Assembly (NCBI GenBank): GCA_947646735.1
Contig: CANTFK010000836.1
Span: 124,001-188,000, forward strand
Source: Peronospora farinosa
Lineage: Eukaryota > Oomycota > Peronosporomycetes > Peronosporales > Peronosporaceae
Length of the DNA: 64,000 nucleotides
Direction: 5' to 3'
This document shows positions 20,412 through 62,008 of this stretch, in pieces. How positions within the stretch are numbered: the stretch's first letter is position 1; every line of letters starts with the position of its first letter. A program made the translations under genes and the position numbers. The notes under the pieces are model-generated. The model did not search any database. It saw only the letters and a program-made list of their open reading frames with translations, and was not told the origin of the DNA.

Positions 20412-20495
20412 CTATTACGAGATTTTGAACGTGGAGAAATTATCAAAAATCGTTTTGAAGTGATGCAGTCACATGAAGAAGGATCTGGTGGATAA
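20412..20495 (+). pseudogene. X pol C-terminus (chromodomain tail)
   Basis: The frame reads LLRDFERGEIIKNRFEVMQS then HEEGSGG and stop. Element F ends its chromodomain with LLRYFERKKKSHNRFEVMQS then HEN. The match shows that X was a plus-strand element whose pol ended here. The chromodomain core upstream is lost; a stop lies in frame just before. Confidence 0.7.
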
Positions 20496-20719
20496 CGAAG
20501 ATCGAGTGTTGGGAGTGGCACAATATGCAAGAAGGTTGCATAGGGTGGTGGAAAGGTAATTTGTATATAATAAGTATAGTGATCGAAGGTCTGCGAGACT
20601 GGATCGCGGCTGAAAAGGCCTGAGAAAAAGAGACAATTTTGGAGAAGATTAACGAAATGGAGAAACAAAATGAAATCGTATTGAACGATCAAGAAGTGTT
20701 ATCGGATCACGAATACAAT

Positions 20720-22740
20720 TTGGGAAGAGAATTACTGGATAAACGGGCGAGGGATGATCCGGGGTGATACGCGATTTAAGATCGATATTGGTTCCGCCAA
20801 GGCTCCGCTGAATCCAGTAACGACAGTGCAGTAATCAGGTTGGGGATGTTTTCTGTTTACAATCCAAAGGAGATACCACACTGGTACTTCGGAGGGCTGA
20901 GGGAAAGGGAGAAAAAAGTGTCCAACAAGATATCCAGATCACAGTGCCCCATGACCATTTCCCGAAGAATGAGTCGAAGCACCGTCTCCAAACAGGGTCT
21001 AGATCACGATCGACGCTGTTTATGCTCTTTGTAAAACTTCGCCAATTCTAATCGCTCTCTCGCTGTTCCTTCGATAGAAACAACGAATGAGACGATTCTC
21101 ATAGACCCTGCCGGTGCCGATCTTCAATTCAAAATAATATATTTATAACTTGTCAAACCACCCATTTATTGGAAAAGAAACCGGGGTGACTAACGTATCA
21201 AGATTTTTCTACGGTTGCTGATCATAAAGTGCCGCAGTTTGTGCCGCAGTGGCCAGCATGGGTAGTCAGGGAGCGGTAGGCAGCATGGAAAAAGGGTATC
21301 TTATGGGCTTGTAAAGATGCTTGTACAAAAGTTCCATTTCCAATTCAGCCACACAGGTTGAGCTAATTCGTCGGGCTGACCATGGCGCAACCTGAGCTGA
21401 CGATCGAAGAACTCGTTTGCGGTATCCAGGATTCCATTGATTTCGCGGCTTCTGAGTAGCTGGTAGATCGGCGTATTCGTGTTGCAAGAGCAAAATGTTA
21501 ATCTTCTTACGGAATTTTGGTTGAAATTGACAGCCCTTCGGAATCGCTAGAGGTTTCGCCAAAGAGATTTAGCTTTAAAATTTTAGTCGAGGTGGATGGC
21601 GCAGGCGAAGCTGGGAGTTACTCAGACGTAGAATTGGAAGTTTCGACATTGATCGGGGAACCAGGTGATACAAAGTGCTTAAAAATTCCAGTTGACGATC
21701 CACGACGCCTAGAGGAAGAATGCGATCCAGACAGAGCTACAAGTTTAGAATCTCCAGAATCGGAAGAATCTTTGTCGTCATCTGACTCGGAGAAGGGAGA
21801 CGCAGGAATTAATTTTTTACCTTTCCCTTTCGAAGGTATAAGAATTTTTTTCTTCCCTATCAATTTCGAAGGGGTGAGAACCTTTTTCCGTGTATTCGTT
21901 TGTGTTTTGGAGGCATACAAATCACGTCTACTGTATCCGAAACATCGCGCTGGCGCAGTGGAACTCGCCGATGGAGCGGATCGCGCTGGAGTATATTTCC
22001 GGATCGACGAAAATTTCCCTTGGATGGAGTCAGGTGGGGTCGAAGAAGAAGGGCCTACGGCTCGAGGACGCTTGGGTGAAATTCGGACGTTGATGGAGAC
22101 GAAGACCGTTTGCTTTTCCGGGATGCCGATCTATCTCGTGCAGTAGGGTTAGATTGGATGATTGAATGTGATCCAGATGCTAGCTGGGCTAAGTGGGATC
22201 TAAGCGCATCCCAATTGTGGACGGCAAGATCACGTTCCACTTCCGATCTGAATTTCCCCACGAAGCTGATCCAAGGAGGCATCTTTGCGAATACTCTCAT
22301 TGAGAATATCATCATTAGTGGCTTGGAGTTCATCCAACCGATTCTGGAGAGAAGCTAGCTGGAGTTGGAACTGATCCTTCAAGACTTGCTCAACCACAGC
22401 CATTTCTCGTCCGTGTCTCTCCTGAGCATGTTGGTTCGCCGTGTTTGCCTTGAGTAGAGCGGTTACAAACTTGCAATCTCTTGAGATTGATCCGCTTGTA
22501 GGCCCAATTCGTCTTCAAAATCTTGAGCTTTTTGAGCTGCAGCGTCGTAACGTTCCTGGAGCCGTTTATAGCGATCTAAGACGAACTTGGACTGAGGAGG
22601 TGCTAGTTCCTGGAAGGATCGCAATTCACATTCCAACCGATTATAGCGCACTTCTTGCTCTCGTAGAGCATCCTTCAAGGAATGATAATGTTCACAACGG
22701 CAGTTTGGGCGTCCAAACGATCGTATAATGCCGCAATGGA
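20720..22740 (-). pseudogene. Antisense ORF of element X, homologous to the F antisense ORF, frameshifted
   Basis: The minus-strand pieces read in order. A coiled coil comes first (DALREQEVRYNRLECELRSF, then in another frame QHAQERHGREMAVVEQVLKD and LQNRLDELQATNDDILNESI). Next are a basic Ser-rich stretch (SASRKSKRSSSPST), KKKILIPSKGKGKKLIPASP, and acidic SESDDDKDSSDSGDS. Then come NPGYRKRVLRSSAQVAPW (21380-21437), MGHCDLDILLDTFFS (about 20910-20953) and a degenerate NQYRS...YHPGS...ARL end near 20730-20800. Every block has a partner in the same order in F (39544-41522). At least three frameshifts are present, so it is a pseudogene here. The function is unknown. Confidence 0.6.
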
Positions 22741-23027
22741 TAACTCCAAGATACGGCGATTTATAACTGGCTAGAATTCTATACGAGTGGAAGGAAGCAA
22801 AATCCGTGATCGGAAAGAATGGCTCGTGGGAGGATCAACCATGCGAGAAAGTTCTGGTCCCGAAACGGCTAAAAGGCTTGCAAATATGACGGAATCGGAG
22901 CCATCCTGTCTGGCGGGGGAAGCGGCCGCAGACGAAGAAGAAGACATGGAGATGACCGAGTTGACAAATGTGGATACGATGCACAGTCATCCAACACTGT
23001 ATGCCGGCTAACGATGCAGGGGACAGT

Positions 23028-31776: not shown

Positions 31777-32503
31777 TCCCTACCACGTACACGATAGCAT
31801 GGACACATTCCAGCGCTGAATTCTCGGTGCTGTTGTCCCCATCGTGCTTCGAGTCACTACTCGAAGCTGGCGAACCGCAGTCAGGTGATAAACCATCACC
31901 CCCCTCTAGGCACTGGATGTCTTCATCCACGATGCCGGAAACACTAGACGGGAGAACCCCAAACTCGACCGTCGACAATTGATGCGGGAGCTCCTGCAAG
32001 GCCGCCGTAAACATGTGTGGGAGCCCATGCTCAACCACAATATGCCCATGTGGGAACCTCGGTTCGACCACAATGGGTGATGATGGGGATCCCGGTTCGA
32101 CCATCATGCTCTCGCGTGGGGACTCCTGTCCGTCCACGTGGTACTCGTGTGGGAGCCCCTGCTCAACCACAATATGCCCATGTGTGAACCTCGGTTCGAC
32201 CACAGTGGGTGATGATGGGAACCCCGGTTCGACCATCATGCTCTCGCGTGGGGACTCCGGTCCGTCCACGTCACAATCGTTGGCGAGCTCTTGCTCGTCG
32301 TCACAATGCCCTTGCGGGAGCCCCTGCTCAACCACAATAGGTGCAGATGGGAACCCCGGTTCGACCACTGCATTCACGTGCGGGAACTCCTGTTCAACCG
32401 CATTCGTGACGCGCGGGAACCCCTGTTCGACTGTGTAGTCCTCGTCGTCCTCTTTGCTCTGTAGCGAGGAGTCACTGTCACTTGTGTTTGCAGAACAGCA
32501 CAA
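31742..32503 (-). pseudogene. C repetitive linker between protease and RT
   Basis: This 253-codon open frame is built from repeats rich in Val-Glu-Pro/Gln-Gly (for example [20 protein letters not shown] and [20 protein letters not shown]). It has no enzymatic motif. It lies where families such as A have a Ser/Gln-rich linker. The repeats are also visible as DNA (32016-32279). Confidence 0.75.
32016..32279. repeat. 132-bp tandem duplication inside the C linker
   Basis: TGTGGGAGCCC starts at 32016 and again at 32148. The two 132-bp (44-codon) units differ at only a few bases, and shorter fragments of the unit (GGTTCGACCA, CTGTTCAACC) continue to about 32440. The period preserves the frame. Confidence 0.85.
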
Positions 32504-37299: not shown

Positions 37300-38250
37300 T
37301 ATGGTGGAGTGGGATTCGCAAATTGCTGATGCGACTCCAACTCTCCACTGGCGCCCGAACGACCGACTAATGGAGGGGGTACCCCGATTCCGTGTATAAA
37401 GCCTTCCTCACCTTGTGTACCCGTCGGTTGGGCGGGTTGCTCTCTTCTCGGTGGACTTGAGTCGATGTTGATCCGAATTGGGTTAGGGATAGGGTTTTTT
37501 GGTGATCTTGTGGAAATCTTCACAAGATCGACCGAGTACTTGGTGTGATCTTTTCAATCGATCACGGTTGTCCAATAAGGCGAAACTTGAATCTTCTGAC
37601 CACTTGAGCAGAACTTTCTGACCACTTGATCCGTCCTGCACTTGCTTCGCCTTGCCTTACTTGTTATTTCTACGTCCAATCGCAGCTGAGCTGTGTTGAG
37701 AGTTCTTGCAATCCCTGGCCAAACAATCCAGGGATATGACTTGCGTAGTGTGTAGGCTTCCTCGAGACGTCGGGTAGCCAAAGAATCCAGCCCGGAAGAG
37801 AAGTCGACACGTGTATTAGAAGTAAAATTGAACTCTGTTTAGTGGTAACGAATCAGATACCAAAACCTACGATTTTGTCAATCTGTAGTCCAGGATCTAT
37901 TACCACGTGTCGTCCTTTCAGAAAAATCAGATATCGATATGTGGTCCACTCCAAATACCCTCACCTTCCCCATCCACTCACGAACTTGCCTTATTCTTGG
38001 ATCGCGATCTGAATTAAATCGCGTATCACTTCAGGATAGCGATCGTTCCATAAAGTGTGGTTCTTGTGAAGTGGATCGCGATCAACTTTGGATCGCGTAT
38101 CTGAACTGGATCGCGGTCTGCTCCGGATCGCGGTTCTGAGTCGGATCGCCGTTTTGAGTCGGATTGCGGTTCTAAGTCGGATCGCGGTTCTGATCTGGAT
38201 CGCATTATCTGTACACTGGATAGCGATCGATCCTCAATTTGTGGTCCACA
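37300..38250 (-). repeat. 5' LTR of E2 (951 bp), U3 array of GATCGCG repeats
   Basis: In element orientation it starts TGTGGACCACAA (38250) and ends CACTCCACCATA (37300; CA decayed to TA). The primer site TGGTGCGCGTG follows after one base. About seven units of roughly 18 bp of the type GGATCGCGGTTCTGAGTC lie at 38072-38214, inside U3. It matches LTRs 19218-20095 and 23028-23939. Confidence 0.85.
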
Positions 38251-38269: not shown

Positions 38270-39509
38270 TGTGGTGGAGTGGGTTCTCAAAATTGTATGA
38301 TGAGACCCCAAACCACTCACTGTGCCGGACTGCCGACTGTCGGAGGGGGTACCCCGATGCCGCGTATGAACCTTCTCTCACCTTGTGTACCCGTCCGCTG
38401 GCGGGTTGCACTCTTCGGAGGACTTGGTGACGATGTAGATGTCTGCCTTGAGGGAGGTAGACCTGGGGGGCCTCGAGTGGATATGCTTCACTCGGTGGGC
38501 CGGTAGGTGGCCACTCGATCGACCTTGTCGAGAGTAGACTTAGAGCCAAATTCTTCAGGGAACTTATCTCTGGCCTTTTCCTTCTGTTTCAGGGGTATTA
38601 ACCACCTGACCTTTACGTTGCTCCCGGGCCTTGAGGTGAGGGAGACCGCTTCCGATAGCGGGTCTTGGGGGGTGGGTGTTGCTACTCGAACGAGCTCACA
38701 GGCCAAATACATCCTGGAGCTCTATTCGCCCTTGAACTTCGCTACGCAACTGTCTTCGACGGGGGGGGGAGCCAAATATATCCCTTCCCGGAACAGTGAG
38801 TAACTTAGAACAAGTCCTTCTTGGGTGACGGAGTCGTGCCACGTAGATCGCAAATTGAGTAGTATTTAATATAGTCCTATCCTTTTAATTCCTTTACTCT
38901 ATCCTTGCCTGAAGCTCTGATTCCTTGCGTCGACTGGTCTGATCCTTGTATTAACTGGTCAGGAGTAGCTAAACCCCTAGGGGCCGAGGTCGACTGATGA
39001 GGGACCCAGGTCTACCAATAAGGGACCCAGGTCTACCAATAAGGGGGCCGAGGTCGACCAACGAGAGACCGGGTCGACCAATGAGGGACCGGGTCGACCA
39101 ACGAGGGACCGGGTCTACCAATGAGGGACCCAGGTCGACCAACGAGAGACCGGGTCGACCAATGAGGGACCGGGTCGACCAACGAGGTACCGGGTCTACC
39201 AATGAGGGACCCAGGTCTACCAATGAGGGACTCAGGTCGACCGATGAGGGACCGGGTCGACCAATGAGGGACCCGGGTCTACCAACGAGCGGCCAGGTCG
39301 ATCAATGAGCGGCCATGATTAACCCCCTTTGGTACCGGTTAACCGGTACCCTGATACTGATTTTGGCGGATCCTGCGGATTGTCCTCCACCAACGGTCGC
39401 TCCCCTTCGAGACCCTTGTCTCTCTGGTCCCCTGTCCCTGACCCACGGCCTACTCCGCATCCAACTGGAGTCTAGGACCTCCACATCACAAAATTAGCAC
39501 TTCACCACA
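38270..39509 (-). repeat. 3' LTR of F (1240 bp)
   Basis: It runs from TGTGGTGGAGTG to CACTTCACCACA; the two ends form an imperfect inverted repeat. It is nearly identical to 49519-50564 apart from an expanded tandem array. It has a G9 run at 38761. In element orientation U3 is on the right side. Confidence 0.93.
38988..39314. repeat. 16-unit array of about 20 bp, core GGTCGACC / GGTCTACC, in U3 of the 3' LTR of F
   Basis: Sixteen units of the form GGTCGACCAAYGAGGGACCG occur head to tail; units 4-7 recur as 8-11, which shows block duplication. The palindrome GGTCGACC is intact in many units and reads GGTCTACC in others. The matching LTR at 50239-50364 has six units. Confidence 0.93.
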
Positions 39510-39543
39510 GCCGCCCCCTGTACTTGATCAACCGTACAACAGA

Positions 39544-41522
39544 TTGAGCACGCGAATGTCTTCACTTCCTTCGTCACGTAGGTTCTTTACTGTCCCCTTT
39601 GTTGCTCATCCATCTTTAACTCGTGTCTGTCCAGCCATGTCTTCCCCTGGTTCTGACCCACCGTCTGCTGACCCACCGTCCGCTGATCCACCGTCTGAAG
39701 AGCCGACCTCGGTCGCCCCAGCGCCTTCAATCGCCCCTGGTTCTAACACCCCATCTGCTGACCCACTGTCCGCTGACCCACCGTCTGAAGAGCTGACTTC
39801 GATCGCCGTCGCGCCTTCGGTTGCCTCTCCATGTAAAGGGGTGTCCTTGGCCGACCTTCCCGGGCCGGTGTCTTCGCCGTTGAGTGCTGCTGAAACTGTT
39901 GTCGTTCACAGCTCTCCTGTTTCCACCGCTTTGCCTCCTGCCGAGACAGCAGATGCTCCTGTCACGCCGGCCCCCATGGTTGACCGTCCGTCTTCCGTAC
40001 CCGTCAACGTACGGGCAGCTCTGCAGGAACTGCGAGCTCTCGCGGACGCCCATTCCCGCCGCATCGAAGACTGCGAGGGTCGGCTAGGTGTCCTTCTCCC
40101 TTCGGCCACTTTGTTGGCCACTCGTTGTGAGCGGTTGGAGGAGACGTTGCGCGACAATTCTCGGCTGGTGGCCCAACTCCGCGAAGCTCTCCAGCGCGAG
40201 ACTGCACTGGTGGACCGTCTGCGATGGAAGGTCGACCACATCCGAAGCCGGTACTCGCTTCTCGCCGTAGAGCTCGACCATGTCGACTTCTCTGACGGGC
40301 CACCTCCGGGACCAGCTACTTCTTCGGCAGCTTCGCCCCCGGCCGTATGTTCCCCTTCGAGGCCGGCGAAAGCTCTTGGTAAACGGTCCCGGCGGCCGTC
40401 ACCCCGGGTACCCGCCAAAGCCTCCAAGCTTCCGAGGCCTGACGCCTCTGCGATACCACTGTCGGCGGTCTCTGGTGGTCTCCTGTCGTGCTTGAGTCTT
40501 CGGACGACGACCTCAGCGACGACAGCGAGACCCTTCGGGCGGCTCTGGCCAAGTCTCGTTCTGCTAGTCGGCGCCCCGCCAGTGCGAACCCTGTACGTCT
40601 TCCGTCGACGTCCGCTCCTCCATCGAGGGCCACCTCGGCTACCGGCCTCTCGCTGAAACGGGCGATGTTCGGGACATCGGACTCGGAGACCGAGTCGTCT
40701 GCGGAGAAAGACAAGAGCGCGCCTACTGTTGCGGACAACACTTCGCCCCCTTTGGCCGACTCCAGCCTGATTCCCAGAGACGCCATGATCCCCGGGTACA
40801 TGCAGTCGAAGACCTTCTCCGCCGCGGAAGTGGCACCTTGGCCGGTCGACCTGGTCAATTCGTGGTGCATTGTTACAATGTCTTCCACAGACTTGGTCGA
40901 CCAGCTGGATCTACCTTGGGGTTGGTTTGGCCATCCGGACGGAAACCTCGACCGTCCCCCCAAATGGAAGAGGTCGTTGGTGAACCCTCCAATGATCCAG
41001 AGATTGCTAGCGGCGGAACCTTGGGTAGAAGCTCTTGTATACATTCAACCCGTTTCCTTCCGACCTGTTGGCTGGTTCGCCCAGTTGGCGGCGGTTTACA
41101 CCCAATTTGACGAAGACCATAGCCAAGCACTTTGGTAGGCGACCCACTGTCTGTGGATCTCCAAGGACCAAGCGCGAGCGAACTCTTTCCTCGCGTCCTA
41201 CTACAACGCGCGGAAGAAGCGTCGGAGTCGGGCAACTCGAGCTTGGCGGGAGGTGGTCGACCTTATCTTCATTGGGATGAGCAGGGGCCACTGCGATCTC
41301 GACATCTTCCTGGATCCCTTCTTCCGTTATCTTCCTCGAACCCGCCGTGTGGTTTATTGGTACCCTGGTCGTGAAGAGGGGTCGGACCCGGTCGACCTGC
41401 TTGAGGCCCTTCGGGTGTCGGATTCTGCGTGGCCGTGGATCACCCAATATCGGTTGTCTTCTGTACCCCATCCTGGAGCATTAGTCCCACGCCTCAAGCG
41501 TAAGTTTGGGCCACCCGTTTAG
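39544..41522 (+). pseudogene. Antisense ORF of element F (about 630-660 codons, one frameshift and one stop)
   Basis: The ORF lies on the plus strand between the 3' LTR and the pol 3' end, convergent with pol. The N-terminus is Ser/Pro-rich (repeats of SADPPS), from ATG 39544 or 39637. A coiled coil follows at 40005-40290 (RAALQELRALADAHSRRIED ... RLEETLRDNSRLVAQLREAL), then a basic stretch ALGKRSRRPSPRVPAKASK. After a frameshift near 40480 come acidic SSDDDLSDDSETLRAALAKS, IPGYMQSKTFSAAEVAPW (about 40785-40843) and a Trp-rich region. After a TAG at 41136-41138 the same frame continues through RGHCDLDIFLDPFFRYLPRT (41283-41342) to ITQYRLSSVPHPGALVPRLK and stop at 41522. The order of blocks is shared with element X. 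No known domain was recognised, and the role is unknown. Confidence 0.7.
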
Positions 41523-41689
41523 ATCTTCCTTTGAACACGAACCTTCATTCTCTTCGATCCTATTTTTGTGCGCTTGTCCATCTTCCATCTCCTCTGCCAT
41601 ACTTTTCTCTGTTCCAGGTGAGCTTGGCAATCTTCCTCCTTTTTTCTCCATTCTTCTATACACCGGACTCGTGAAAGGTCGAGGTCTCC

Positions 41690-41770
41690 CCATAGGCGAC
41701 CCAGGTCTATCAACGAGGAACCGGGTCGACCAATGAGGGACCAGGTCTATCAATGAGGGACCCGGTCTAC
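41690..41770. repeat. Short copy of the GGTCGACC/GGTCTA array at the convergence point of pol and antisense ORF
   Basis: About four units (CCCAGGTCTATCAACGAGG, CGGGTCGACCAATGAGGGA and variants) lie between the stop of the antisense ORF (41522) and the stop of pol (41796). They match the units of the U3 array. Confidence 0.85.
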
Positions 41771-41795
41771 CTTCCAAGGATCTTGCTATCGTCTG

Positions 41796-42251
41796 CTAGT
41801 TTTCATGGCTTTGCATTACTTCAAAGCGATTATGGCTTTTCTTCTTGCGCTCGAAGTACCGGAGTAAAGATCCGCAATTCAGATCCACTTCGTCCACCCA
41901 CGAGGGGCCAGGGTGTTCCTTCCATTGCACGAGGAATTCTCGTTGTTGCCTTCCATACTGAGTCTTCTTGCCTGTACGAATCTCTAAGATTTCTTCGACT
42001 TCATACTCGCCTTCTTCCAATTCCCGCACCCAGCTGTCTTCAAGTAACAGACATTCGTCGAAGTCAACTCGATCTGTTCCATCCACTTTCAGCTCGCTGT
42101 TAGGTCGATCGGGGAACTCTCTGACGGGCTTGAGCTTGGAGATGTGCACGATTGGGAACAGTCTGTATTCTGTACCTCGTAGTTCTAAACGTACTGCATG
42201 ATCTCCGACTAATTCCCGGACTCGTAACGGTACGTGCCAGAGATGGGCCAA
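41796..42251 (-). pseudogene. F integrase tail and chromodomain
   Basis: This 151-codon frame has the tail YRLFPIVHISKLKPVREFPD, acidic VRELEEGEYEVEEILEIRTG and the chromodomain core REFLVQWKEHPGPSWVDEVD with its aromatic positions (Y, W, W). It ends RYFERKKKSHNRFEVMQSHE-N. It probably directs integration to marked chromatin. It is out of frame with the integrase core upstream. Confidence 0.83.
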
Positions 42252-42331
42252 TTTCTTGGCATACCCCTCTTTCCCGATCTAAGTATAGCCATACCCGGGC
42301 CCCTGGCTGAATTTCGTGGCCGACTACCCCT

Positions 42332-43272
42332 TCATTTTGCGCTTGCACCGAGAGCCTGACTAGCCGCCCGTAGGTTCTCGTTGACTTGATCTCTTGCTCG
42401 CTGATAGTGACTTTGAATCCGATATCTCCATCTCCGAGGTCCTGATTCTTGACGTCGAGTGTTTACCACCGGTAACATAGTCTCAAGAGTGGTCCTAGCA
42501 TCCCATCCATGTACCAGATAGAACGGTGTTTCCTCCCGCACTCTGTCTTGGGCCGTGTTTGACGCGAACGTTAATCGTTCCGCGTATTCATCCCAGTCTC
42601 GCTGTCCCACGTCGACTACGTACATCTTGAGCGATCTTGTTAGAGTCTGGACCATTCTCTCCGCAGTGCCGTTCGCTTGAGGTCGGTAGGCCATGGTCGC
42701 TCTCTGACGTTAACCCACCATACGACTGAACGCTCGAAAGAAGTCCGACATAAACCCCGGTTCCCGATCGTGACGGATCGTCTCATTGGCGCCAAAACGG
42801 CGGAAAACGCATTCTTCATATCCCTCAGCTACTGTCTGGGCTGTCCGTGACGCACTAGCCTTAGCCATCACATAACCTGTGAACAGGTCGACCCAGATCA
42901 GTAGTTCCGTATTTCCTTTATGTGACTTGGGGAGAGACGGTATGTGGTCCATCGCAATAATTTGGAAGGGGTACGTCGCTTCAACATTCCCCGGAGACTT
43001 CCCTTGTAAAGTGGGTCTCCCTTTTCTAGTCTCACAATCTATGCACTGACCCACATATTTCTGGACACTCCGGAACAGACCCTCCAATGACAGTATCGTC
43101 TGATCCGATGATAAGTACGCCCGATTCCTTGATTTCCGCCTTCCAAACTCGTATGATAATGATGGAGGACGTCGTCTTGGAGACTCTCAGGTATCACCAA
43201 TCTGGCAGTTATGTCTCGGTCTTCTCCCTTGATCCTCTGGCCGGCCGCAGTACACCAGCAGTTCTTCTTCAC
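42332..43272 (-). pseudogene. F integrase (zinc region and core, three frames)
   Basis: The zinc region has LHHYHTSLEGGNQGIGRTYH (43272 frame) and GQCIDCETRKGRP (43087 frame). The core has IIAMDHIPSLPKSHKGNTEL, FGANETIRHDREPGFMSDFF and MAYRPQANGTAERMVQTLTR, which give D, D and E. Frameshifts lie near 43080 and 42700. Confidence 0.85.
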
Positions 43273-45127
43273 TTATCAAGTAGTCTCCCGACATTTTGCT
43301 GCAGTTTCTGGCCGCTTCCACCGACAAGTCTTTCCAGTCTCCCTTCAAATATGCCTTCAACTCGCGTACCCAGCTCTCCTCTTCTTGCGCATCTCGGATC
43401 CTATCCATCCGGAGTTGTTGTACCACATTTTCTTGCATGACCTCTCCCGATATTTTGACGGGGAACCGTGATCTCGTCACCGCAGATACCTTGACCGACT
43501 GACCTCGGTCTCTAGGGACCAAAACCTCTGGCAGCCGATTAATTGCTTCTATACCTGACCACTCTCCTTTCGGTATCGATTCGGCCCCTTGATGCTGATG
43601 TAAAGCTGTACTGGCCAACTGGTCTGCGCTCTGATTCCAGTCTCGTTTCACATGTAGGACTGCCTGGTTGGGCCACGACTGGAGTTTACTCAACGCCTTG
43701 GCCCGCAACGGGGATAAACCTGAAGCTTTGCATTCAATCTCTCCACGCATCTGTCTTATAACCAGATTGGAGTCTCCACAAATAATCAAACGCCATCGCT
43801 CCATTGGCTCCAACAGGTCAAAACCCAGCAACATGCCCTCATATTCAGCTTCATTCACTGTAGACTTGTCGAGATATTTCGATGCAGCTGCGACTATAGT
43901 CCATGCAGGGAGTCTCCACACAATAGCGCTGCAAGCACCTCCCCCTTGTTTCACCCGGGCCGACCCATCGAAACTCATCACATACAGTTCTTCATTTAGT
44001 TCCACTGTGGGCGTCGGTAGGTCGACCACTTGCCTGGATTGCTTCTTGGGAGCAATTGACGACAGAATTGAGTCCACATTCTCTCGAGGCGTGATGCTGG
44101 CTGCTAACGCCCCCAGTACCTGGTCCTCGCCTTTCTTGCATTTCACAATCTCCAAAGTCCACTGTGACAACAGAGCGGTCCAATTTCCCAAGCGACCTTG
44201 CAACCCCGAAGACTTCACTAGCCAGGCTAGTGTAGAATGCCTCGTCAGAACCTTGAGAGGTCGGGTGACCAACATCGTGAAGCAAGTCTCCAATATTCGT
44301 AACAACGCCAGCACTTCCTTTTCCACTGTGCTATAGTTCACCTCGTTTGACGTGAGGGTTCGGCTCGTAAACATTACCGGCATATACAGGCCGTCGTAAT
44401 TCTGCACCAACGACGCCGAGATAGCCCAATCACTTGCGTAGACAATGATGACCGCCTCTCTAGCCGGGTCGAAATGTCGTAGGATGGGCGCCGTAGCAAT
44501 CTTGTTCTTGAGCATGGCAAACGCTACTTGTACCTTCGACCATTTTTCTTCGTCGTCTTCCTGGGCCGCCACTTCCTCGTTATCCTTCAATTTGCACCTC
44601 CAAGCGTGAAAATCCACCTCTCTCAGTTCGTAAAAGATCGACGCGTATATGGCATAATCTTCGATGTACCTGCTGTAGTAATTTAGGCTTCCTAGAAATG
44701 ATTGCATAGCCTTCAGCGTTGTCGGTAGAGGTAGGTCGACCAAAGACTGAAGATCTTTTGGATGGGCCTCTAGTCCCCCTTTGGAAACTCGATGCCAAAG
44801 ATACTCGACCTTCCGACATCCCCACGTACTCTTGACGGCACTGACCGACAAATTCCAATAGTCACACACGTCTAGCAGCCGCTCCACTTTCTGGCATAAT
44901 ACGTCCCACGATTCGGCCGGAACAAGTATGTCGTCAATGTATGATCGTCGACCCAATATAGAGAAGCCCGAGTTTGCATCTGGTTCCCCTGTTGCGAACA
45001 AATCCTCTGTTTCCTCTGTGGCAGCCCCTGGCGAAAATCCGTAAGAATCCATATAACGCATTATCCAACAACCTTTGATATATCTGAGGCGCATTCTCAA
45101 GCCCAAAAGGCATCCGAAGCCATTCAA
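43187..45127 (-). pseudogene. F RT end, degenerate first RNase H and intact second RNase H
   Basis: This 646-codon frame contains RT box YIDDILVPAESW (residues 63-74) and the thumb/connection (GSLNYYSRYIEDYAIYA). The first RNase H (about 215-330) has VYASDWA where TDAS is expected and LTRHSTL where TDH is expected, so two catalytic Asp are missing. The second RNase H (about 381-510; 43987-43598) has all four acidic residues: FDGSA (D387), NEAEYEG (E428), CGDSNLV (D452) and NQSADQLAS (D502). Plant Tat and oomycete elements with such a second RNase H are known; the first domain then tends to become a non-catalytic tether. The frame runs on into the pre-integrase region. Confidence 0.88.
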
Positions 45128-46943
45128 ATAATCCCAGTGGAGTAACGAAAGATGAGATTAGTCTCGCCCTTTCGGTCATACTGACGACCCAAAAAACACT
45201 TGCCATATCAAGAGAACAGTACCACAAAGCTCCGTCCAGGTCCTCCAGTAATTCGTTAATCAGCGGCATCGGGTACACCATAAGCTGGGTGAGATCATTC
45301 ACCAACCGATAGTCGATACACAATCGAATATCGACCCCATTCTTCTTCACGATAATTACAATTGGGCTGGCCCATGGCGAGGTGGAAGGCTGAATGATCT
45401 TTGCTGATAACAGTCCCTTGATCAGGTCGGCCAGCTTCTCTCTGAATTGAGGGACCAACTTTCGTACGCGCTGCGCGATCGGTCTTGCGTTCCCTAAATC
45501 GATATCGCATATCGCTCCTCGGTCGGCCGGGGGTAAGGCGTTACCTTTGCCCATCAGCAGATGTCGTTTCTTCCATATTATTTGTCGCAACCGGTCCACC
45601 TCTTCGGGAGTGTTCCCATCTGGATCAGGAATCTGTATATCTTCCAACTCAATGCCTTCGGATGAGGGGTCCACTTCCGGTACGACCGCCCACCCTGGCC
45701 TTATGTCCTCGGCCCAAAGTTCCCCACTCTCGAAAGAACACACCTGGTAATCTGCCTGTAACGAGTCTACCAGTTTGGCTTCCTTCTCATTGGTGGTGGT
45801 CACTGAATTTAGGTCTTCTTTAGATACAATCCGCTCCTGGGCGGTCCCCTCCTGCCAATTCACCCTCTCTTCGCACGGTTGTTCTTCACTGTCGGGTACC
45901 GGTTGGTGCGTTATATTCATCACTGGGGTTGGGGCCTGCGGTCGCTGTAAGATGTGTGACGGAGTCTTATACTCTGGTCTCTCCACTAGTGGCCCCTCTT
46001 CCTCTTCCGTTAGGTCGACCTGATGGTCGACCTGGTCGGTAGTAGATTCGTAAGCCAGATTTAGCCATTCCGCGTATCTTCGAGAGCCTACCGAGACAAA
46101 CCCTGGCGTTCTCGGAACTTGCTCCCTAGTCAACCACATACCTACCTTGGTATCTTCGTGCAATGTTAAGGGGCGAGGGCTGACATTGGTTATCTTCAAA
46201 ATCGGTCGACGTCCTATCCCTTGTATCATGGTGGTCACCCATCGTTCGCCTCTCGTGACCAACAATTTCCACTGTTCTGAGATCGACCTTTTGAGAGGCA
46301 CTTCCGTACACCCTCCAACGGATATCTGTACATACCGACCCAATTTCACATCCGATACTCGAGTATTATACAGTGTCCTTCGCCCAGTCAACTGCACCGT
46401 GATCTCATCGGGGAGGCAAAGAGTTCCGTCGGCCAAGTCTAACCGGATACCGGCTGGGACCATGAAGTCCATCCCCAAAATTGCATCTTGGCCTATTATA
46501 GGGCCTACCCACACCTTAAAGATGTACACCAAGTTCCCATTCAGAGTGACCTTGATGCGAGTGCGCCCCTCCGTGGTGTATACGGCTTCCCCAATACCAA
46601 TACATTCTTGTCGTTCACTTTCATCAATTTGGCAGCCTACCTTACGAGCAAAGGCGATATCCAGAATGGATATTTCGGCACCAGTATCAAACAACAAATT
46701 TGCATGGTCGTTGTTGACCTTTCCAGAAGCTTTCGCTTGCCTGAACCATTTAGTAGGGGCGTGGTATTTCCAGTACCCCCTAGACTCGCCTGGCAATAAG
46801 TCCAACTCCATTACTGAACTTTCTCGAACAAAATTATTAAGTTCATTCAAAGAAGCAACATGGACCACAGGGTAATTTCCAATCTTCGATATATTTCCAA
46901 TCTTAACTGGCATACCCATCTCCTCCTTGGGCTGTTTTTCCAC
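44934..46943 (-). pseudogene. F protease and reverse transcriptase N-terminal part
   Basis: This 669-codon frame has retropepsin LLFDTGAEISILDIAFARKV near residue 105 and flap-like GQDAILGMDFMVPAGIRLDL. RT motifs follow: PIAQRVRKLVPQFREKLADL, RLCIDYRLVNDLTQLMVYPM, YCSLDMASVFWVV, and FEWLRMPFGLENAPQIYQRL. The RT catalytic YIDD lies after a frameshift near 45060, in the overlapping frame that starts at 45127. This is the longest open retroelement frame of the window. Confidence 0.88.
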
Positions 46944-47005
46944 ATATGCAAAGATGCAACAATTAGAACGCTCGGCTCGTACCAGATTCTAACCTGGCGA
47001 GCTTC

Positions 47006-49518
47006 CTAATTTGCCATCTTCTCGAGTTTCTCCGGGAACATCCCTGCATGCTTGGCCGGGTTGTACCATTGACGGAACAAATTGTAGAACTCCTCCATCT
47101 GGCACTTCCCAATCTCGAGAATCTCTCCACAACCCCGGCATACAAACAGGCAGCGATCTGATGGGTGACCCTTCCTTCCACAGCGGTCGCAGGTCAATCT
47201 TTTCCAGCAATTCAGATCTCCATGTTTCTTGGACCCGCAATATGCACATCTCGTGTTAGGGGTCGCTGATGATGGACCGGGTCGCTGGTCTACTGCCTGG
47301 CGATGTTGGTCGGCCTCTCTAGTCGGTAGATTCTTTGAGAACCGCACACTTGGGTCCCTTCCTGCTTCCTTCTCCATAAGGTAGACTCGCCTTAGATCTC
47401 CTTCGTTCTCTGAAGAATCTGGGCTGGAATCTTCAGAGCTCGAGTCTTCAAGGGGCGCCCGTACTGCATGTATGGAGCGGCGATTCATATCTCTCGGCTC
47501 TCTGGTAGTGCCGGTGCTTTCTGACGAAACTTGTTTGATCCAAACAACATCTTGCCTCGTCGTGCCTTCGTCCGCTGACATGCTGTTAATACTTCTTCCA
47601 ATTCTTCCACATCCGCCAGACGCAACATAGTCAACTTTTCTGCTAGCTCCGGGTCGTCCACCGTCAAAATGTAATGATCGACATGATCCTTCTGAACCTT
47701 GGGCGACCCATCCTTAATCTTCATCTTCGCCCTGAGTCCAAGCACATTCAGGCGGTACAGATAATCCAGTGGGGTCTCTTCCGACCTTTTCTTCGCATGG
47801 TAGTACTGGCGGGCGACCGGTACCCCCGTGCCACAGAACCGAATTATGAATTCTTGGATTAAGTCCTTCCAGTTTCCTCGGACTGAGCGACCCAGTTGAC
47901 GGTACCAATTCTGTGCCGGTCCAGTCAGCAATCCTCCAAAAACGAGACATCGTTCATCATCTGGTGCTTGGTCTCTTATGAATGCTGTCTTGACCGTTGA
48001 TACCCAGCTGCGCGCTCTGTCTTCGTCTTGGTCTCTTCCATGAAATTTTTTAAGGTCCGAGGTCGCCGAGAATTTGATGCGAGGGACCATATTTGGCATC
48101 TGTCCCAGCGCTGCGTTCGACATTTGAGGTCCCCTCAAATCCATGTTGTCAGGGTCGAACTCACAGAAACCGACGGATTCCATATCGACGTCGGTCATCG
48201 TGTGGCCTCTTGGCATTTGTATGCCTGGATGCTGGTCATGGTGAGCGGTCGTCCTTTGCGCCTCTGGTCTTCCTCCTGCTATATTCCCGTTAGGGTGTGC
48301 CCGCGGTACTTGGCGTTCATTCAAAAATCTTGCCATCGCCGCGTCGAAGAGGGTCTGCAGATCACCTACCGGGTAGGTAGGTCCTTCCCCCCAGCATCTT
48401 CGTCACGGGGCAGAGCAAATTCTAACTTTTTCCCTTGCTGATTTTCCATTGGTTGAAAAACGGAATGATTTTCATTCTTGCCACGCGTCGCCATTTCGAG
48501 ACCACGTGGTTCCTGCTCCGCGCTGCGCGCTCGGGCCTGGAGCAGCGCCGCTCCAGTAGGTCCTAGGGGCATCCTAGTGACCGACCCAGTTGAGGACGAT
48601 CCTGGGACCACGGTGATGCTTCCTTCTGGCCGCTTGGCATCCGGTGTTGAGATGGGCCTTGATTCGCCCCTGGGTGGCCGGCGGCTCCGTACATGTGGGG
48701 ACACACCGTGATGTCTTGAAGCGTCATCTGGCTGTCGTTGGACCGCTTGTGTGTAGGTGTCACCAGAGGTGGGTGTTCCGTTGCTGGTGTGGTATCCACC
48801 AGGATCGACAGACGCTTGTGCATGTGCTCTAACGTTGTTGTGATTCTATCGAATCCCAGGGATAGCAGATCGTCCGGGTCGAACCACCCTGCGACCATGT
48901 TCGCTTCACGAAGAAGGGTGACCAGCGCTGTGATCGCGTCCGTGACGGATTGCAGCCGTGGTAGGGTCGACACCGGCCCAGTAAGTTGACCCAGCTGCCG
49001 GATCTCCAGGGTCTTCGCGACGGGGTCGCTCTCCAGGAACGCGTTCAGCTTGCGTTGGTGGTAGGCCCTCGTGACGTCAGCGTCTGACCATGATGCCAGT
49101 CCTTACTTCTCGGGGCCTATCGACTAGGTGTTTCCGGGCGCCTTCATCCGGAACTTTGTCGGCTTGGATTGCGCGATCTTTGTTTTTGGTTTGTTCGGGG
49201 ACCTTAGCCTCTCGGTTTTCACCGTCGGCTGATGGTCCTCTGGATCATGATAGGCATCATGACCCAAGGTGTCCTCTACGAGGACATAGGGAGGGTATTT
49301 AGGCTTCTCTTCAATAAATTCAACCTCGACCATGTTGACCGGGCCCCTCCCAAGGCCCGGTCGGTCCTTCGATCCTTTGTTTCTTCTTCTTGAGTCACTG
49401 GCGATCGGTCTTCCAGTGACTCTTCGGTCTTGTGCTCCTTCTTGACATGAACATCGTTATCGTCTTGGGACTCGCGGTGAAATCCCGCGTCTTCCAAAGA
49501 TCCGGGCACGCGCATCAT
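47006..49518 (-). pseudogene. F gag, starting exactly at the LTR border
   Basis: The first codon after the LTR is ATG (49518-49516): MMRVPGSLEDAGFHRESQDD. Later frames carry RLQSVTDAITALVTLLREAN (48973-48563), the capsid SATSDLKKFHGRDQDEDRAR ... YRQLGRSVRGNWKDLIQEFI ... RQYYHAKKRSEETPLDYLYR (48336-47485), and a double Cys cluster CAYCGSKKHGDLNCWKRLTC ... RKGHPSDRCLFVCRGC (47581-47006). The four frames are separated by shifts. The same order is seen in E2. Confidence 0.82.
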
Positions 49519-50564
49519 TGTGGTGGAGTGATTTCTCAAAATTGTATGATGAGACCCCAAACCACTCACTGTGCCGGACTGCCGACTGTCGGAGGGGGTA
49601 CCCCGATGCCGCGTATGAACCTTCCCTCACCTTTTGTACCCGTCGGCTGGCGGGTTGCACTCTTCGGAGGACTTGGTGACGATGTAGATGTCTGCCTTGA
49701 GGGAGGTAGACCTGGGGGGCCTCGAGTGGATATGCTTCACTCGGTGGGCCGGTAGGTGGCCACTCGATCGACCTTGTCGAGAGTAGACTTAGAGCCAAAT
49801 TCTTCAGGGAACTTATCTCTGGCCTTTTCCTTCTGTTTCAGGGGTATTAACCACCTGACCTTTACGTTGCTCCCGGGCCTTGAGGTGAGGGAGACCGCTT
49901 CCGATAGCGGGTCTTGGGGGGTGGGTGTTGCTACTCGAACGAGCTCACAGGCCAAATACATCCTGGAGCTCTATTCGCCCTTGAACTTCGCTACGCAACT
50001 GTCTTCGACGGGGGGGGGGGAGCCAAATATATCCCTTCCCGGAACAGTGAGTAACTTAGAACAAGTCCTTCTTGGGTGACGGAGTCGTGCCACGTAGATC
50101 GCAAATTGAGTAGTATTTAATATAGTCCTATCCTTTTAATTCCTTTACTCTATCCTTGCCTGAAGCTCTGATTCCTTGCGTCGACTGGTCTGATCCTTGT
50201 ATTAACTGGTCAGGAGTAGCTAAACCCCTAGGGGCCGAGGTCGACTGATGAGGGACCCAGGTCTACCAATAAGGGACCCAGGTCTACCAATAAGGGGGCC
50301 GAGGTCGACCAGTGAGGGTCCCCAGATCTACCAACGAGGGACCGGGTCGACCGATGAAGGGCCATGGTCAACTCCCTTCGGTACCGGTTAACCAGTACCC
50401 TGATACTGATTTTTCTTATGTGGGTCCTGCAGATTGTTCTCCGCCAACGGTCGCTCCCCTTCGAGGCCCCTGTCTCTCTGGTCTCCTGTCCCTGACCCAC
50501 GGTCTATACCCCGAATTCAGCTGAATTCTGGGGTCCCCATATCGCAAAATAGCACTTCACCACA
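49519..50564 (-). repeat. 5' LTR of F (1046 bp) with primer-binding site
   Basis: It is near-identical to 38270-39509, with TGTGG...CCACA ends. The coding strand continues ATGATGCGCGTGCCC, giving a primer site TGATGCGCGTG one base inside. It has a G11 run at 50010-50020. The flank on the right (AAACTATCTAATAAAAC) is host-like AT-rich DNA. Confidence 0.92.
50239..50364. repeat. Six-unit GGTCGACC/GGTCTACC array in U3 of the 5' LTR of F
   Basis: The units are of the same type as those of 38988-39314, but only six, with one AGATCTACC variant. The first three units are identical to the first three of the other LTR, so the difference arose by array expansion or contraction after that point. Confidence 0.9.
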
Positions 50565-54471: not shown

Positions 54472-54551
54472 AGATGGGCAGGTATACGACTGCATTATGA
54501 CCCCACCGAGCGGGATGGGCAGGTAAGACGGGTGCCATCTGACACTTACAT

Positions 54552-55148
54552 TGTAGACGGGCACTTCTACGAAGTTGCCTCGTGCTACTAGCATACACCT
54601 TCAGCACAAGCGAGGAAGCGGTTAGACCGTCTTACCTTCGCGTGCGAGGGTGGTTATGCGGTTGGTCGACTGCTTAAGCAGTCGTACCACTAGTTGCCTC
54701 TCGCTTTAGCGAGAGTGCAACGAACTTCTTAACAAGAAGACACCGACTTCACGCAGAAGCTTACTCAGCTTCTCGTGCGTGTTGCTTAAGTGTTAGAAAA
54801 ATTCAAGAATGAGCTATACTAAATGAATTATAATTAAATATAAAAGCTAACTACTAATTGGCTATATATATAGATCGGATACGCGACTCTTTAGAAGCGT
54901 ATCCTGACGCATATGTTTAAATCTAGATTTAAGTTTGCGAATGACGTCCTTCTGAGACGTCGCGATGCCTAGCTTCAACTAGCGCCATCCCTTCCCATGT
55001 CAATCCATCAATAGCTATCACATTCACGAGGGTGGATCACGTTTGTGTATCGCACCCAAGTGACAGGCCAAAAGTAATTATGGATAGTTTTAGACCTTAC
55101 ATAAAGTATATTACCTAATGTTTACGTGTAACTAGATACCCTGTTACA
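54552..55148 (-). repeat. 3' LTR of A2 (597 bp)
   Basis: It runs from TGTAGACGGG to CTGTTACA. On the coding strand, purine-rich AAAAGAGGGGATGG directly precedes it, a good polypurine tract. Confidence 0.95.
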
Positions 55149-55244
55149 CCATCCCCTCTTTTAGAACGATTTTTACATTTTGTAAAACATCGCCTAGGAG
55201 ACAGAGTGATTTGTAAAACGCGCCGCTTAGTCTACTCAATTCTC

Positions 55245-56239
55245 ATGCCACCGAAACGTGGTAAGGCTGATGGGCCGCCTGCAAGGTGCCCATGCATTCC
55301 AGCACTAAGCGCACGCGCCACGATGATTCGCAGCCGTCGCAAAGTGCTTCAGGCACTGAAACGAATTTTTCATCTCACTGTCGTTTACGTAAAGATTTTC
55401 CTTTAATATCATGAAATTCGAGGGAAATGTGGATGAAGATTCACTTCTCATTGTAGACTACAATGAGAGCACGCCATTGCGATCACCCCAAAGTGGAGAT
55501 AATCAAAGCGCGTTGATGGGACATATGTCCCCAACATTTGAGGTATCCGTCCTTGAGGGAGCGTCTGTGCTTCCTGCAAGCGAAGGTAAGGCCTCGTCGC
55601 CTGTGCCTTCGAGCGCAGCGACTAAGGCTGAGCACGCTACTTCAAAAGGAGCAGTCGCAACTCAATTTGATGTGACTCCTCAGGCTGATGTCTTGACAAT
55701 CCATAAAGGAGAGCCAGACTGAGGTGAGTGTAAGCTCAAAGCTCCACCGAGTACACCTTTGGCCTCGCTAGCCCGCCGTCGCGAGGGAGGCTACGTGGGT
55801 GGTGGCTTGCCACCAATGCCACCTCCATCTGAGTGGATGAACTCGGATGGGTCTAGTGCAGCGCTTTTGCAGCGTGCCACTATAGACGCCCATAAATTTT
55901 ATAGCTTCTTTCCCGTGTGGAAAAAGCAGGGCAAAGCACTTGGTCGTGCTTTCCTAATTCCAGTCGTGCTGCGTTCTAACGAAACAGCCGACGACTATGA
56001 AGCCGAACTTCGGCGCCGTGTTACCTTGCATGAAGATGCAACGAAACAGCGGTCGCAGTGAATCAGCCGTGACGCGTGCAAATGAAATCTTGGGTGGTAA
56101 GCGACCCCCAAGTGATTCTCGCTACGCTTCTTCTGCTAGTCCTTCCGGACCTAGCAGAAAGACGTCAGCTGGTGCTGCTTCACATAAGCAGCCACCAGCC
56201 CAGGCACGTCGACGCGCAAAGAGTCAACAACTCCCATGA
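55245..56239 (+). pseudogene. Antisense ORF of family A, copy 2
   Basis: It parallels 12004-12987. The first piece MPPKRGKADGPPARCP shifts frame early. The main frame can start at ATG 55411 (MKFEGNVDEDSLLIVDYNES) and reaches TGA at 55720-55722. The same frame continues (ASLARRREGGYVGGGLPPMP, KFYSFFPVWKKQGKALGRAF) to a second TGA at 56061. A third, shifted piece ends in RRRAKSQQLP at 56239. The first TGA is shared with A1, the second is new. Downstream on the same strand, 56395-56721 is open with a helical stretch (DLESQVSRLTLDMRDM) and an RS-rich end, overlapping the minus-strand chromodomain and tail; whether it belongs to the antisense protein is unclear. Confidence 0.58.
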
Positions 56240-58347
56240 ATTAAAGATCGCTGGGTAACCCTTCCAATGGACGAGGATTTGGAGCTTTCGCTTCACAAAA
56301 CGGTGGGCCAACAGCCTTCCAACAAGGAAGCGCGTGTTACCTTCCGCGTCCCATGGTTCCCGATAGGAGTGGCGATTATGCCCACCTACTCGCGGCTGCC
56401 TAACCTGCTGCTGTTCAGTGGCAGGATGAGACCGCTGCGCTGAAGAAGCAGGTGACTGATCTCGAGAGTCAAGTCTCCCGACTGACTTTGGATATGCGCG
56501 ATATGAGGACGAGGGACCGTCAGGGGTATGACCGCCTGAAGCCTCGGTTGGATCTTTTAGAGCGACTGGTGATGAGAGACCCGCGTCAAGCGCGAAGTAC
56601 TCCTCGTCCACCGTGTCCTCTACCGAGACCTCGTTCGTATACGGGGAGCCTCTCGGCTTCCTCGTCGCCTGATCGTCCGCGACGCTCGACTCACAAATGG
56701 CGTCACCATCGGTCTCGTTAGACCGATGTGGATATGTGATCTCTTCTGGATCAACATATCGTTTCAGACGACCCACATATAATACGGGGTGCGTCTTCGT
56801 ATACGGTGGGAGAGTGAGCCAATAATGTAGGTCTCCAACTTCTTCAACCACTGTAAAGGGCCCAATGAATCGGGGCAATAGCTTAGTAGTACCACCAGGT
56901 AGTACAGAAATTGCATGTTTAGGTAGGGTAGCAGTACTTTGTCCCCCACACTTGAGTGTTCATTGTTTTTGCAACCATGCTGGTCTGCATATTGTTTTGC
57001 TTGCCCTGTGCGCTTGCAATCACGTCAAGGACTTAACGTGCGGTGGCTGATTGCTCATCCACAAAGCGCTGAGCTTCGTTCACGCTTTTACCATCCAGCT
57101 CGCCTATGACGCCTCCAAGAGGTCGTTCATGGGTCGAATCTGTTGATAACACGATAGTGTCATCGCTAAGGAGCACTGGCATTTCTTGCCGTGCCTCGTC
57201 TGTGACACCTATAGGTTTCGTGACCACTGCTAAATGAGCAGTTTCACTAGGGCAACCTTGGCCCTCTTTGGCATTCGCACCGAGCGAAGTGAGGGTCCCT
57301 CCTCCACTAAGACTCGGGCTGCGTACAAACGAGACTGGCGTTCGAGAATGACGCAGTCCGTTAATATAAAACGGTGTTTCACCCGTACTGGCGTAAACAC
57401 TGTTATTAATAGCGAAGTCCACGAATGGAAATTGCTTGCTCCATTCTTTGGGAGTCGATAATTTACGCAACACATCCGCCACGACTCGATTGGCCTGTTC
57501 TGTTTGGCCATCGGTCTGGGGATGATCAGCGGTTGACATGTGGGGTTTGCTACCTAGCAACTCAAACACATGTCGCCAAAAATCTGACGTAAAGCGGATC
57601 CCGGTCCGATACTATGGACTCGGGCATCCCGTGTAGTCGATACACGTGATCCAGAAACAAGAGGGCAGCCTCTTTTCCTGAGATCTTGGTGCTACATGGT
57701 ACCAAATGCACCATCTTGCTCAGTCTGTCTACAAAGACGACGAGCCCCGTCCTGCCTTTATGGTCAGGCGGTAAGCCAAACATAAAGTCCAAACTGGCCG
57801 ACTTCCAACATTCAGTAGGAATCGGCAGTGGCTCCAGTGGCGCACTGTTAGAAGCTGCAGGCTTTATGCGCTGACACTCTTCGCAAGAGCGAATATAGTT
57901 GGCCACCCACCGATATAGGTGGGGCCACCAAAATTCCTCTGGCACTCGTAAGAATGTCTTTTTACGGCCCAGATGCCCACTAGATGGCGCATCATGGCAC
58001 TCGTGAAGTATCATCAGCTTGAGATCTGTGACATGAGGGACATAGATTCTCAAGGGATCACAGGGTGACAGTTGATTCCATAACAGGCCATCACTGTAAC
58101 TAAAGCGATTTAGTTTTGCTTTGAGGTGCGACTGAAAGGTACCCTTTCGTCCACCATAATGATCCAACAACAGGCGACAATGTTCGTCCTGACTGTAACA
58201 CTCCTTTATATCGGAGGCCATTGAGCTCGTCACATGGTAGGCCTTCATGGCTGCCAATATTGACGACTCAACTTGTGCTTTCGCACGAGACACACTATCT
58301 TGGTGTCTTGCCTCGAAGTCTGACCTGCGCGATAACGCGTCAGCCAA
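56180..58347 (-). pseudogene. A2 integrase and chromodomain
   Basis: The frame from 58347 (MADALSRRSDFEARHQDSVS) has the zinc region ECHDAPSSGHLGRKKTF and RSCEECQRIKPA and the start of the core (SLDFMFGLPPDHKGRTGLVV, ESIVSDRDPLY). The next frame (57569-57033) has HPQTDGQTEQANRVVADVL. The last (56878-56180) has the tail HPVLYVGRLKRYVDPEEITY and the chromodomain RFLVGRLLAHRFVKRK-LQILVHWKGY before its end drifts out of frame. At least two frameshifts are present. Confidence 0.87.
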
Positions 58348-58441
58348 GACATTCGACTTACCCGGCTTATATTCAACTTTTAAATAAATTCAGAGAAGAA
58401 TGCCAGCCATCTCGCCATTCTCGGCGAGAGGTGCGGTGAAT

Positions 58442-60004: not shown

Positions 60005-60236
60005 TTGATCGTCGTAATACGTCTGGTGCTCGTTTTTCGAGTCACCACGACCTTTGACCTGGAAGAAGGTGTCGTTGCTATTTCAGCTAACGCACTCCTT
60101 CCAACAGCATCAGGATCATGTATCTGTGCCGGTTCTTGTGGCGCTTGACTTCCTGTCAGCCCACCTTCAACTGCCACAGACTCTTGAATCTGTGCAGGAC
60201 CATTGTACACATGTATACCTGTCATCGTCCCAATCA

Positions 60237-61964: not shown

Positions 61965-62008
61965 GCTTAGAGAGACGGGTCGTGGGAAGGACTACTAGTG
62001 CTACCAAG

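Follow-up and report, generated by a model that had tools for sequence, protein, structure and literature searches.

Why would a retrotransposon keep a long open reading frame (ORF) on the strand opposite its own genes? The question is raised by a 64,000-nucleotide stretch of the oomycete Peronospora farinosa (contig CANTFK010000836.1, positions 124,001–188,000 of the forward strand; hereafter the window), which lies within contig C223 of the 46.85-Mb genome used as our search target. The window holds a degraded long terminal repeat (LTR) retrotransposon, element F, and the remnant of a relative, element X, each with a frame convergent with its pol gene. An earlier reading of the window, made from the letters alone (the sequence-only reading), had proposed that this frame encodes a protein selected in the antisense orientation. 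Here, we find that the antisense frame is protein-coding and has been under purifying selection, and we weigh what its product might do.

Element F occupies 38270..50564 on the minus strand, as delimited by its LTR pair (BLAST), the LTR edge with a polypurine-tract-like stretch, its pol domains, and the homology of its pol to that of L049, a sister-subfamily copy; its domain architecture is Chronos-type. The 3' LTR (left copy, 38270..39509, minus) and the 5' LTR (right copy, 49519..50564, minus), both placed by BLAST and edge reading, share 97.5% identity across the 845 columns of their common part. The 3' LTR, presumed to be the source of antisense transcription, carries tandem repeats of about 20 bp at 39024–39307. 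Gag–pol runs on the minus strand, with a gag region at 47009..48336 (a capsid-like piece from a domain scan and a zinc-knuckle-like piece seen by eye) and pol in several broken frames at 41802..46574 (ORF list, Pfam domains, and homology). The gap from pol to the 3' LTR is occupied on the plus strand by the antisense ORF (39556..41522), recognized from the window frames, from its open state in other copies and from purifying selection. Its place and its orientation convergent with pol were correctly given by the sequence-only reading; the single long ORF was not, since the window copy consists of two pieces, 39556–about 40480 and then about 40488–41522 in another frame, with the frame change between about 40480 and 40587 and a TAG at 41136–41138. 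Other copies are open and continuous in one frame, so these breaks are damage to this copy, an intron is ruled out as their cause, and the window copy is a pseudogene. A 99% identical copy of the window piece, with matching frame pattern and TAG, lies 37 kb off on the same contig (G000:C223:201575–202225).

A DNA search with 651 bases of the antisense frame returned at least 40 scored copies, the window's own included, and all 40 were fetched with flanks. A single frame is open from the N-terminal block through the final stop in 7 of the 40, and the C-terminal domain is open in 12 (profile-based count); in one copy (L011), the continuous frame measures about 656 codons from the ATG equivalent to 39556. 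Intact copies thus exist, as DNA in this one genome and as predicted proteins in other oomycetes. The start of the gene lies some dozens of bases in from the edge of the 3' LTR, and its end about 200 bases before the pol stop. By eye, the inner LTR edge reads ACTTC.CCACA, and a stretch rich in purines on the element's own strand comes next. F, L049, L050, and L070 each have a single occurrence of this motif upstream of the gene; counted from it, the frame's first ATG lies 46 nucleotides (nt) inward in F, 85 nt in L049, and 84 nt in L050, and F has one further ATG within the LTR. An ATG this close to the LTR edge implies that the antisense transcript should begin in the LTR or in the short gap. 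Retention did not separate the candidate starts of F, 39556 being kept in 38 of 40 copies and 39637 in 39 of 40. An oomycete initiator motif, sought by eye before the ATG, was unconvincing across subfamilies and was dropped.

Selection was assessed across the 40 F copies by reading each variant in the codon of its carrier copy and comparing the ratio of nonsynonymous to synonymous changes (N/S) with that expected if changes of the same types were placed at random. Variants common to at least two copies should mostly predate insertion, and singletons should mostly postdate it. In the antisense frame, shared variants gave an N/S of 0.59 of expectation (261 to 201, z −4.9), the count being made site by site and not on a tree, so that z values here and below serve only as a guide. 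The ratio was lower still in the C-terminal domain (0.37 of expectation; 64 to 74, z −5.8) and stood at 0.49 in pol; singletons in the antisense frame gave 1.06. The LTR, read in two arbitrary frames, gave 1.03 and 1.01 for shared variants and 0.84 and 0.83 for singletons (z −1.8), and four of the five other frames gave 1.23–1.47 for shared variants. An earlier version of the count agreed, giving 0.71 for the N-terminal part. In six-frame comparisons of F, L049, and L050, the antisense frame was the top protein match, with expect values (E) of 8e-48, 1.5e-44, and 1.6e-105, and the runner-up frames were weaker by at least 33 orders of magnitude. The antisense frame is therefore protein-coding and has been under purifying selection, as had been supposed, and dN/dS among copies does not sit near 1. 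The protein is less conserved than pol, F and L049 sharing 39% identity against 74%.

How widely is the gene carried? With the C-terminal part as query, the genome yielded at least 125 matches for F, at least 122 for L050 and at least 128 for L070, counts in which fragments of one copy are tallied separately and the lists overlap. Among the 122 matches listed for L050, 15 are L049-type copies with stop-free frames of 905–973 codons. Open antisense frames occur in F, L049, L050, and L070, and in L054 for the C-terminal part. The layout recurs: L049 has its antisense ORF at 1588–4374 (plus) and pol at 4558–9888 (minus), and in L050 pol ends at 877 (plus) with the antisense ORF at 1098–3374 (minus). 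Two pol searches gave 123 distinct pol ends (C26, in two pieces, was excluded). A convergent antisense match lay within 2.5 kb of the pol end in 71 of these and, after a third query, in 86, and a same-strand match near the pol end was found in none of the 123. A supposed fourth Chronos subfamily without the gene (C6, C270, C171, C24, and others) was rejected, as L070, beside the C270 pol, has a convergent 784-codon frame with the same domain. A further type, 51–57% identical to the C270/L070 type (C200, C246, C253, C24, and C90), has open frames of 699–754 codons. All five subfamilies examined carry the antisense gene. In L070, the linker of the antisense ORF is expanded by tandem repeats in 30/45-nt steps; plant Retand elements likewise carry repeats in this interval.

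The encoded protein begins with a Ser/Pro-rich part and continues with a long helix and a long Ser-rich part predicted at low confidence. Next come an acidic stretch and the AL..SRS..RR motif, and the protein closes with a C-terminal domain of roughly 250 residues. All blocks named in the sequence-only reading (coiled coil, basic, acidic, PGY, APW, GHCDLDI, and HPG/RL) are present. The coiled-coil-like segment of F is placed at 40003..40308 (plus; approximate, partly by eye) from a weak SlyX match in the window ORF (residues 192–255, E 0.023, below cut-off), a crude heptad scan that flags windows from L011 residue 295, and a model of the L050 protein with one long helix, residues 86–278, in the equivalent region. 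Basic clusters are found in the Ser-rich middle part of most members, not all. The conserved AL..SRS..RR motif (40542..40574, plus; alignment and motif scan) lies 3' of the acidic stretch and recurs in 17 of 23 scanned proteins. The conserved C-terminal helical domain (MIPGY...APW...RKKRRSR...GHCDLDIFLDPFF...HPG..RL; 40776..41519, plus) was delimited by profile, tblastn, alignment, and a structure model of the L049 member; its near-invariant residues in the alignment include those at the PW, RRS, C-D.D, LD, H.P, and W.P positions. Modeled alone, the L049 domain is predicted to be all helical, with a predicted local distance difference test score (pLDDT) of 83.9 and a predicted template modeling score (pTM) of 0.80. 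As the sequence-only reading had surmised, no named family claims it as far as Pfam goes: the L049 domain has no Pfam match at E 0.1. A PDB sequence search with a profile from all of A1, coiled coil included, returned generic coiled coils. None of the four own-genome proteins holds a 19-residue stretch with mean hydropathy above 1.46, and 5 of 41 relatives (P0011, P0014, P0032, P0034, and P0039) exceed 1.6, with a maximum of 2.89 in P0032.

Which lineage of elements carries this gene? Pol shows the Ty3/Gypsy order of reverse transcriptase (RT), RNase H, and integrase (Pfam on L049, the F window copy and the F copy L024). The integrase core (rve) falls below cut-off on both L049 and F pol, with the H2C2 finger above it. 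Both RT_RNaseH and RVT_3 score above cut-off; the second RNase H of F, archaeal/plant-type (RVT_3; 43607..43972, minus; Pfam), shows D-E-D-R-D by eye, as does that of L049. In the native RNase H of both, the first aspartate position is the Y of a VYAS motif, the other positions having been read by eye and unaligned. The chromodomain ending F pol (41850..42005, minus; an approximate position mapped from L049 by Pfam and homology) reaches 27.6 bits for PF00385 in L024 against a cut-off of 25.1, and 21.0 bits (E 3e-4), below cut-off, in L049. Judged by domain architecture, the F/X lineage matches the published oomycete Chronos clade (Ustyantsev et al. 2017, PMC5348765), whose elements are described as joining a Ty3/Gypsy pol with native and additional RNase H, integrase, and chromodomain in an oomycete host. 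The antisense gene is an added feature here: the words 'antisense', 'opposite', 'complementary', and 'additional ORF' do not occur in the main text of that paper, and its figure legend deals with ORF1 and the domains of ORF2 only (PMC5348765). By term search, the text of a 2023 follow-up on plant elements contains neither 'antisense' nor 'aORF'. Our searches of open-licence literature turned up no account of an antisense gene carried by oomycete elements.

A comparison with the extra antisense ORFs (aORFs) of plant elements, raised in the sequence-only reading, holds strongly for layout and fails for the plant TRP28 domain. According to the text of Vicient 2025 (PMC11963269), TRP28 is encoded in 97% of Retand clusters, and tandem repeats are described for this region of the plant elements in about half of cases. 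In the oomycete lineage, TRP28 (PF04195) was absent from all matches at E 1 for ten full-length proteins and, in a scan of 29 members at E 0.1, from the 25 family rows listed out of 43; a chromodomain and an oomycete host further set this lineage apart from Tat/Retand. The position is that of the aORF-3R class, antisense to gag–pol in the interval between pol and the 3' LTR, as seen in F from both LTRs and in L049, L050, and L070 from the pol end and the LTR-edge motif. Presence in most copies with element-like conservation, which also marks that class, is seen in the 86 of 123 pol ends and in the N/S of 0.59 versus 0.49 for pol. What makes the plant parallel striking is that two RNase H domains are a feature of Tat elements as well (PMC5348765); in that paper, the second RNase H is allowed the possibility of a single origin. 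Gene23 of maize Grande (PMC7264820) is likewise an antisense gene between pol and the 3' LTR, with a nuclear product and its own promoter reported in that source; it is likened to the oomycete protein by layout alone. The arrangement thus has precedents in plant Retand and Grande; what is new, as far as our searches tell, is the protein family and the host lineage.

Relatives of the protein were sought beyond this genome. The L050 protein found 23 proteins, 19 with an organism name, and P0004 found 29, 22 of them named; the F piece alone found one. All named relatives are from oomycetes (Phytophthora species, Peronospora matthiolae, and Nothophytophthora), and, going by these matches, related proteins exist in three Peronosporales-type genera. 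A search of the viral contig collection gave no relative. In a tree of the C-terminal domain, F pairs with P0001; the C270 type, a long branch, joins F less firmly (88/91); and L049, L054, and L050 cluster with P0004 and P0005. The C270-type pol is 76% identical to that of F and 74% to that of L049; the antisense tree agrees with these pol identities, which fits vertical descent of the pol–antisense pair. Among F, L070, and the L049 group, the antisense proteins are 32–40% identical with long open frames. Two relatives are unusual in make-up. P0028, a predicted protein on a 1.9-kb contig, has an RT–RNase H region joined to the antisense C-terminal domain, both read from the same strand, and is probably a rearranged copy. 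P0031, a Phytophthora fragariaefolia gene model, has a precomputed Pfam PF06839 (zf-GRF) match ahead of the antisense C-terminal domain, which might reflect either a fusion in the host or a faulty gene model.

Some copies have lost the gene. Two of the 37 pol ends without a listed antisense match were inspected. C28, an F element, matches L024 at 99.8% and 99.6% identity on either side of the gap; its pol is open over 1761 codons, and it lacks L024 positions 1535–3420. C180 is L049-type, with pol open over 1937 codons, and lacks L049 3046–4351, which codes for the C-terminal domain. Loss of the gene is compatible with an open pol, because both keep one. The whole C28 junction query was spanned by 8 of 40 listed matches and the whole C180 junction query by 13 listed matches, C28 and C180 themselves included. 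The idea that a single deletion founded all gene-less copies was rejected for F, as the C28 and C17 junctions differ and, in C73, the piece that was fetched extends beyond the point of the C28 junction. C273, C271, C225, and C237 share one junction, which lies at an 8-base repeat, and C17 resembles a diverged form of it by eye; either one amplified deletion or recurrent deletion would produce this pattern. Some gene-less derivatives may thus have multiplied, and copies that lack the gene and keep an open pol fit a product supplied in trans by full-length copies.

What, then, might the protein do? Our preferred account, which we regard as an even call, is that the frame is an accessory gene conserved in Chronos-type Ty3/Gypsy elements, and that its product acts in trans and is probably a nuclear, coiled-coil, nucleic-acid-binding protein. 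A short antisense mRNA would start in or beside the 3' LTR; its product would enter the nucleus, self-associate via the coiled coil, and touch nucleic acid or chromatin via the basic stretch of the C-terminal domain (RKQRRSR...RWK). There it would regulate the transcription, silencing, or nuclear handling of the element, working in trans on copies that are integrated or nuclear, and copies minus the gene would then be carried by full-length ones. HBZ of the human T-cell leukemia virus (HTLV) is a coiled-coil protein. It is described as a nuclear regulator made from an antisense promoter in the 3' LTR (PMC11963269, PMC7264820), and is cited here as an analogy only.

Several observations weigh against this account. 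An antisense match is missing from the lists for 37 of the 123 pol ends, a shortfall partly due to searches that score the best candidates only, and the L070 copy has no ATG close to the start of its frame. The losses in C28 and C180 may mean that the gene is simply dispensable; they also fit a gene that is useful and inessential. Six of the 23 scanned proteins (P0004, P0011, P0016, P0017, P0018, and P0022) have no pattern-defined basic cluster outside the C-terminal domain. The full-length structure model is poor beyond the long helix (pTM 0.30), with the C-terminal domain less confident than when modeled alone, and in ten full-length proteins the Pfam matches are to generic coiled coils and all fall below cut-off. 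The proposed entry into the nucleus and binding of nucleic acid draw on basic motifs and on analogy with Grande gene23, HTLV HBZ, and TRP28, none of them a shown homologue.

Other explanations dispense with a protein. The frame could mirror coding constraint acting on the sense strand, or result from GC-rich composition: in many copies a 397-codon sense-strand frame is open here as well, and the sense-strand mirror frame has an N/S deficit of its own (0.76, z −2.8; 0.60, z −2.7, over the C-terminal domain). However, the antisense deficit is stronger (0.59, and 0.37 in the C-terminal domain), and the mirror frame opposite pol has a like deficit (0.57 versus 0.49 in pol itself); the sense-strand deficit is a shadow like the one opposite pol. 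With the antisense frame best between subfamilies by at least 33 orders of magnitude and same-frame proteins in other oomycetes, constraint on the opposite strand does not explain the conserved blocks, and a mirror effect without a protein is barely credible. Alternatively, the antisense RNA alone might matter and its reading frame be incidental, as non-coding antisense RNAs are described for some retroelements in the text of PMC7264820. We consider this highly improbable given codon-level selection, long open frames at 32–40% identity, and conserved blocks, and as a full explanation it is contradicted by the N/S counts.

If a protein is made, it could have another role or another origin. It might be an RNA-binding suppressor of host small-RNA silencing: convergent transcription would give double-stranded RNA (dsRNA), and the protein from the antisense mRNA would shield the element. 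Small RNAs of both strands are reported to map to Gypsy elements of P. infestans (PMC3522703), and the convergent layout with about 200 bp between stops and the basic stretch in the most conserved helix suit such a role. We nevertheless think it unlikely, as no dsRNA-binding or other RNA-binding family scores above cut-off in the ten full-length proteins. To our knowledge, a coiled-coil plus acidic architecture is also atypical of known silencing suppressors. A further proposal is that a host gene was captured once by the element and is now a passenger or, after domestication, is used by some hosts. Five relatives on long contigs (P0009, P0015, P0020, P0023, and P0039) could be single-copy genes, but selection inside the elements has been long-term, the gene co-occurs with pol at 86 of 123 ends, no relative is shown outside elements, and the gene tree agrees with the pol identities (76% against 74%) in joining F and the C270 type (88/91); capture is decidedly unlikely. 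Very unlikely, finally, is a structural, envelope-like protein or second capsid component, despite the env position between pol and the 3' LTR, the coiled coil, and the helical domain. The sense orientation and transmembrane segments of envelope-like genes are both lacking, the gene being antisense and the hydropathy scan of the four own-genome proteins showing no stretch above 1.46, and no gag or capsid Pfam match appears among the rows listed.

A trans-acting nuclear accessory protein of the element is the most likely account, and a bolder, tentative extension of it, on balance doubtful, concerns the plant parallel. Plant Tat/Retand and oomycete Chronos elements, unrelated to each other, would each have acquired, through unrelated proteins, both a second RNase H and a nuclear gene that sits antisense in the same slot, pointing to a common requirement; the Chronos protein would act in trans, and the gene-less copies would be parasites of full-length ones. 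Antisense retrotransposon genes have been described mainly in flowering plants. A gene without detectable TRP28 kinship, in oomycete elements thought to have acquired their second RNase H independently, suggests a shared need and offers a comparative route to what such proteins do. The proteins are also present, unnamed, in Phytophthora and Peronospora annotation, and naming them as element genes would keep them from being counted as host genes.

Element X carries the homologous gene in the same place and in mirror orientation, as the sequence-only reading had stated. Its antisense ORF is a minus-strand remnant at 20692..22890, detected by tblastn with the L049 and L054 antisense proteins and by profile matches at 20734–21466; several frame changes disrupt it, and this copy is a pseudogene. 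Convergent with it lies a plus-strand remnant of the pol end (20412..20492; 27 residues, 89% identical to L049 pol by protein homology), an arrangement that mirrors F. X resembles the L049 and C255 subfamilies. The description of F and X as two different retrotransposon families has to be revised: they are subfamilies of one Chronos-type lineage.

Within the window, the C-terminal-domain profile matched only at 40761–41513 (F) and 20734–21466 (X). A second LTR element of 7.9 kb, present as two copies 92% identical to each other (11299–19213 and 54550–62390), gave no match to this profile and served as a built-in control. Near-identical LTR-like repeats in mixed orientation (19218–19873, 23085–23937, and 37302–38153) surround X and abut F, and are perhaps solo LTRs or nested insertions. 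Minus-strand open frames contain a 132-bp tandem repeat at 31986–32414, and host-like genes for a protein kinase and a CLC chloride channel lie in the repeat-rich surroundings at 6102–7862 and 8188–10593.
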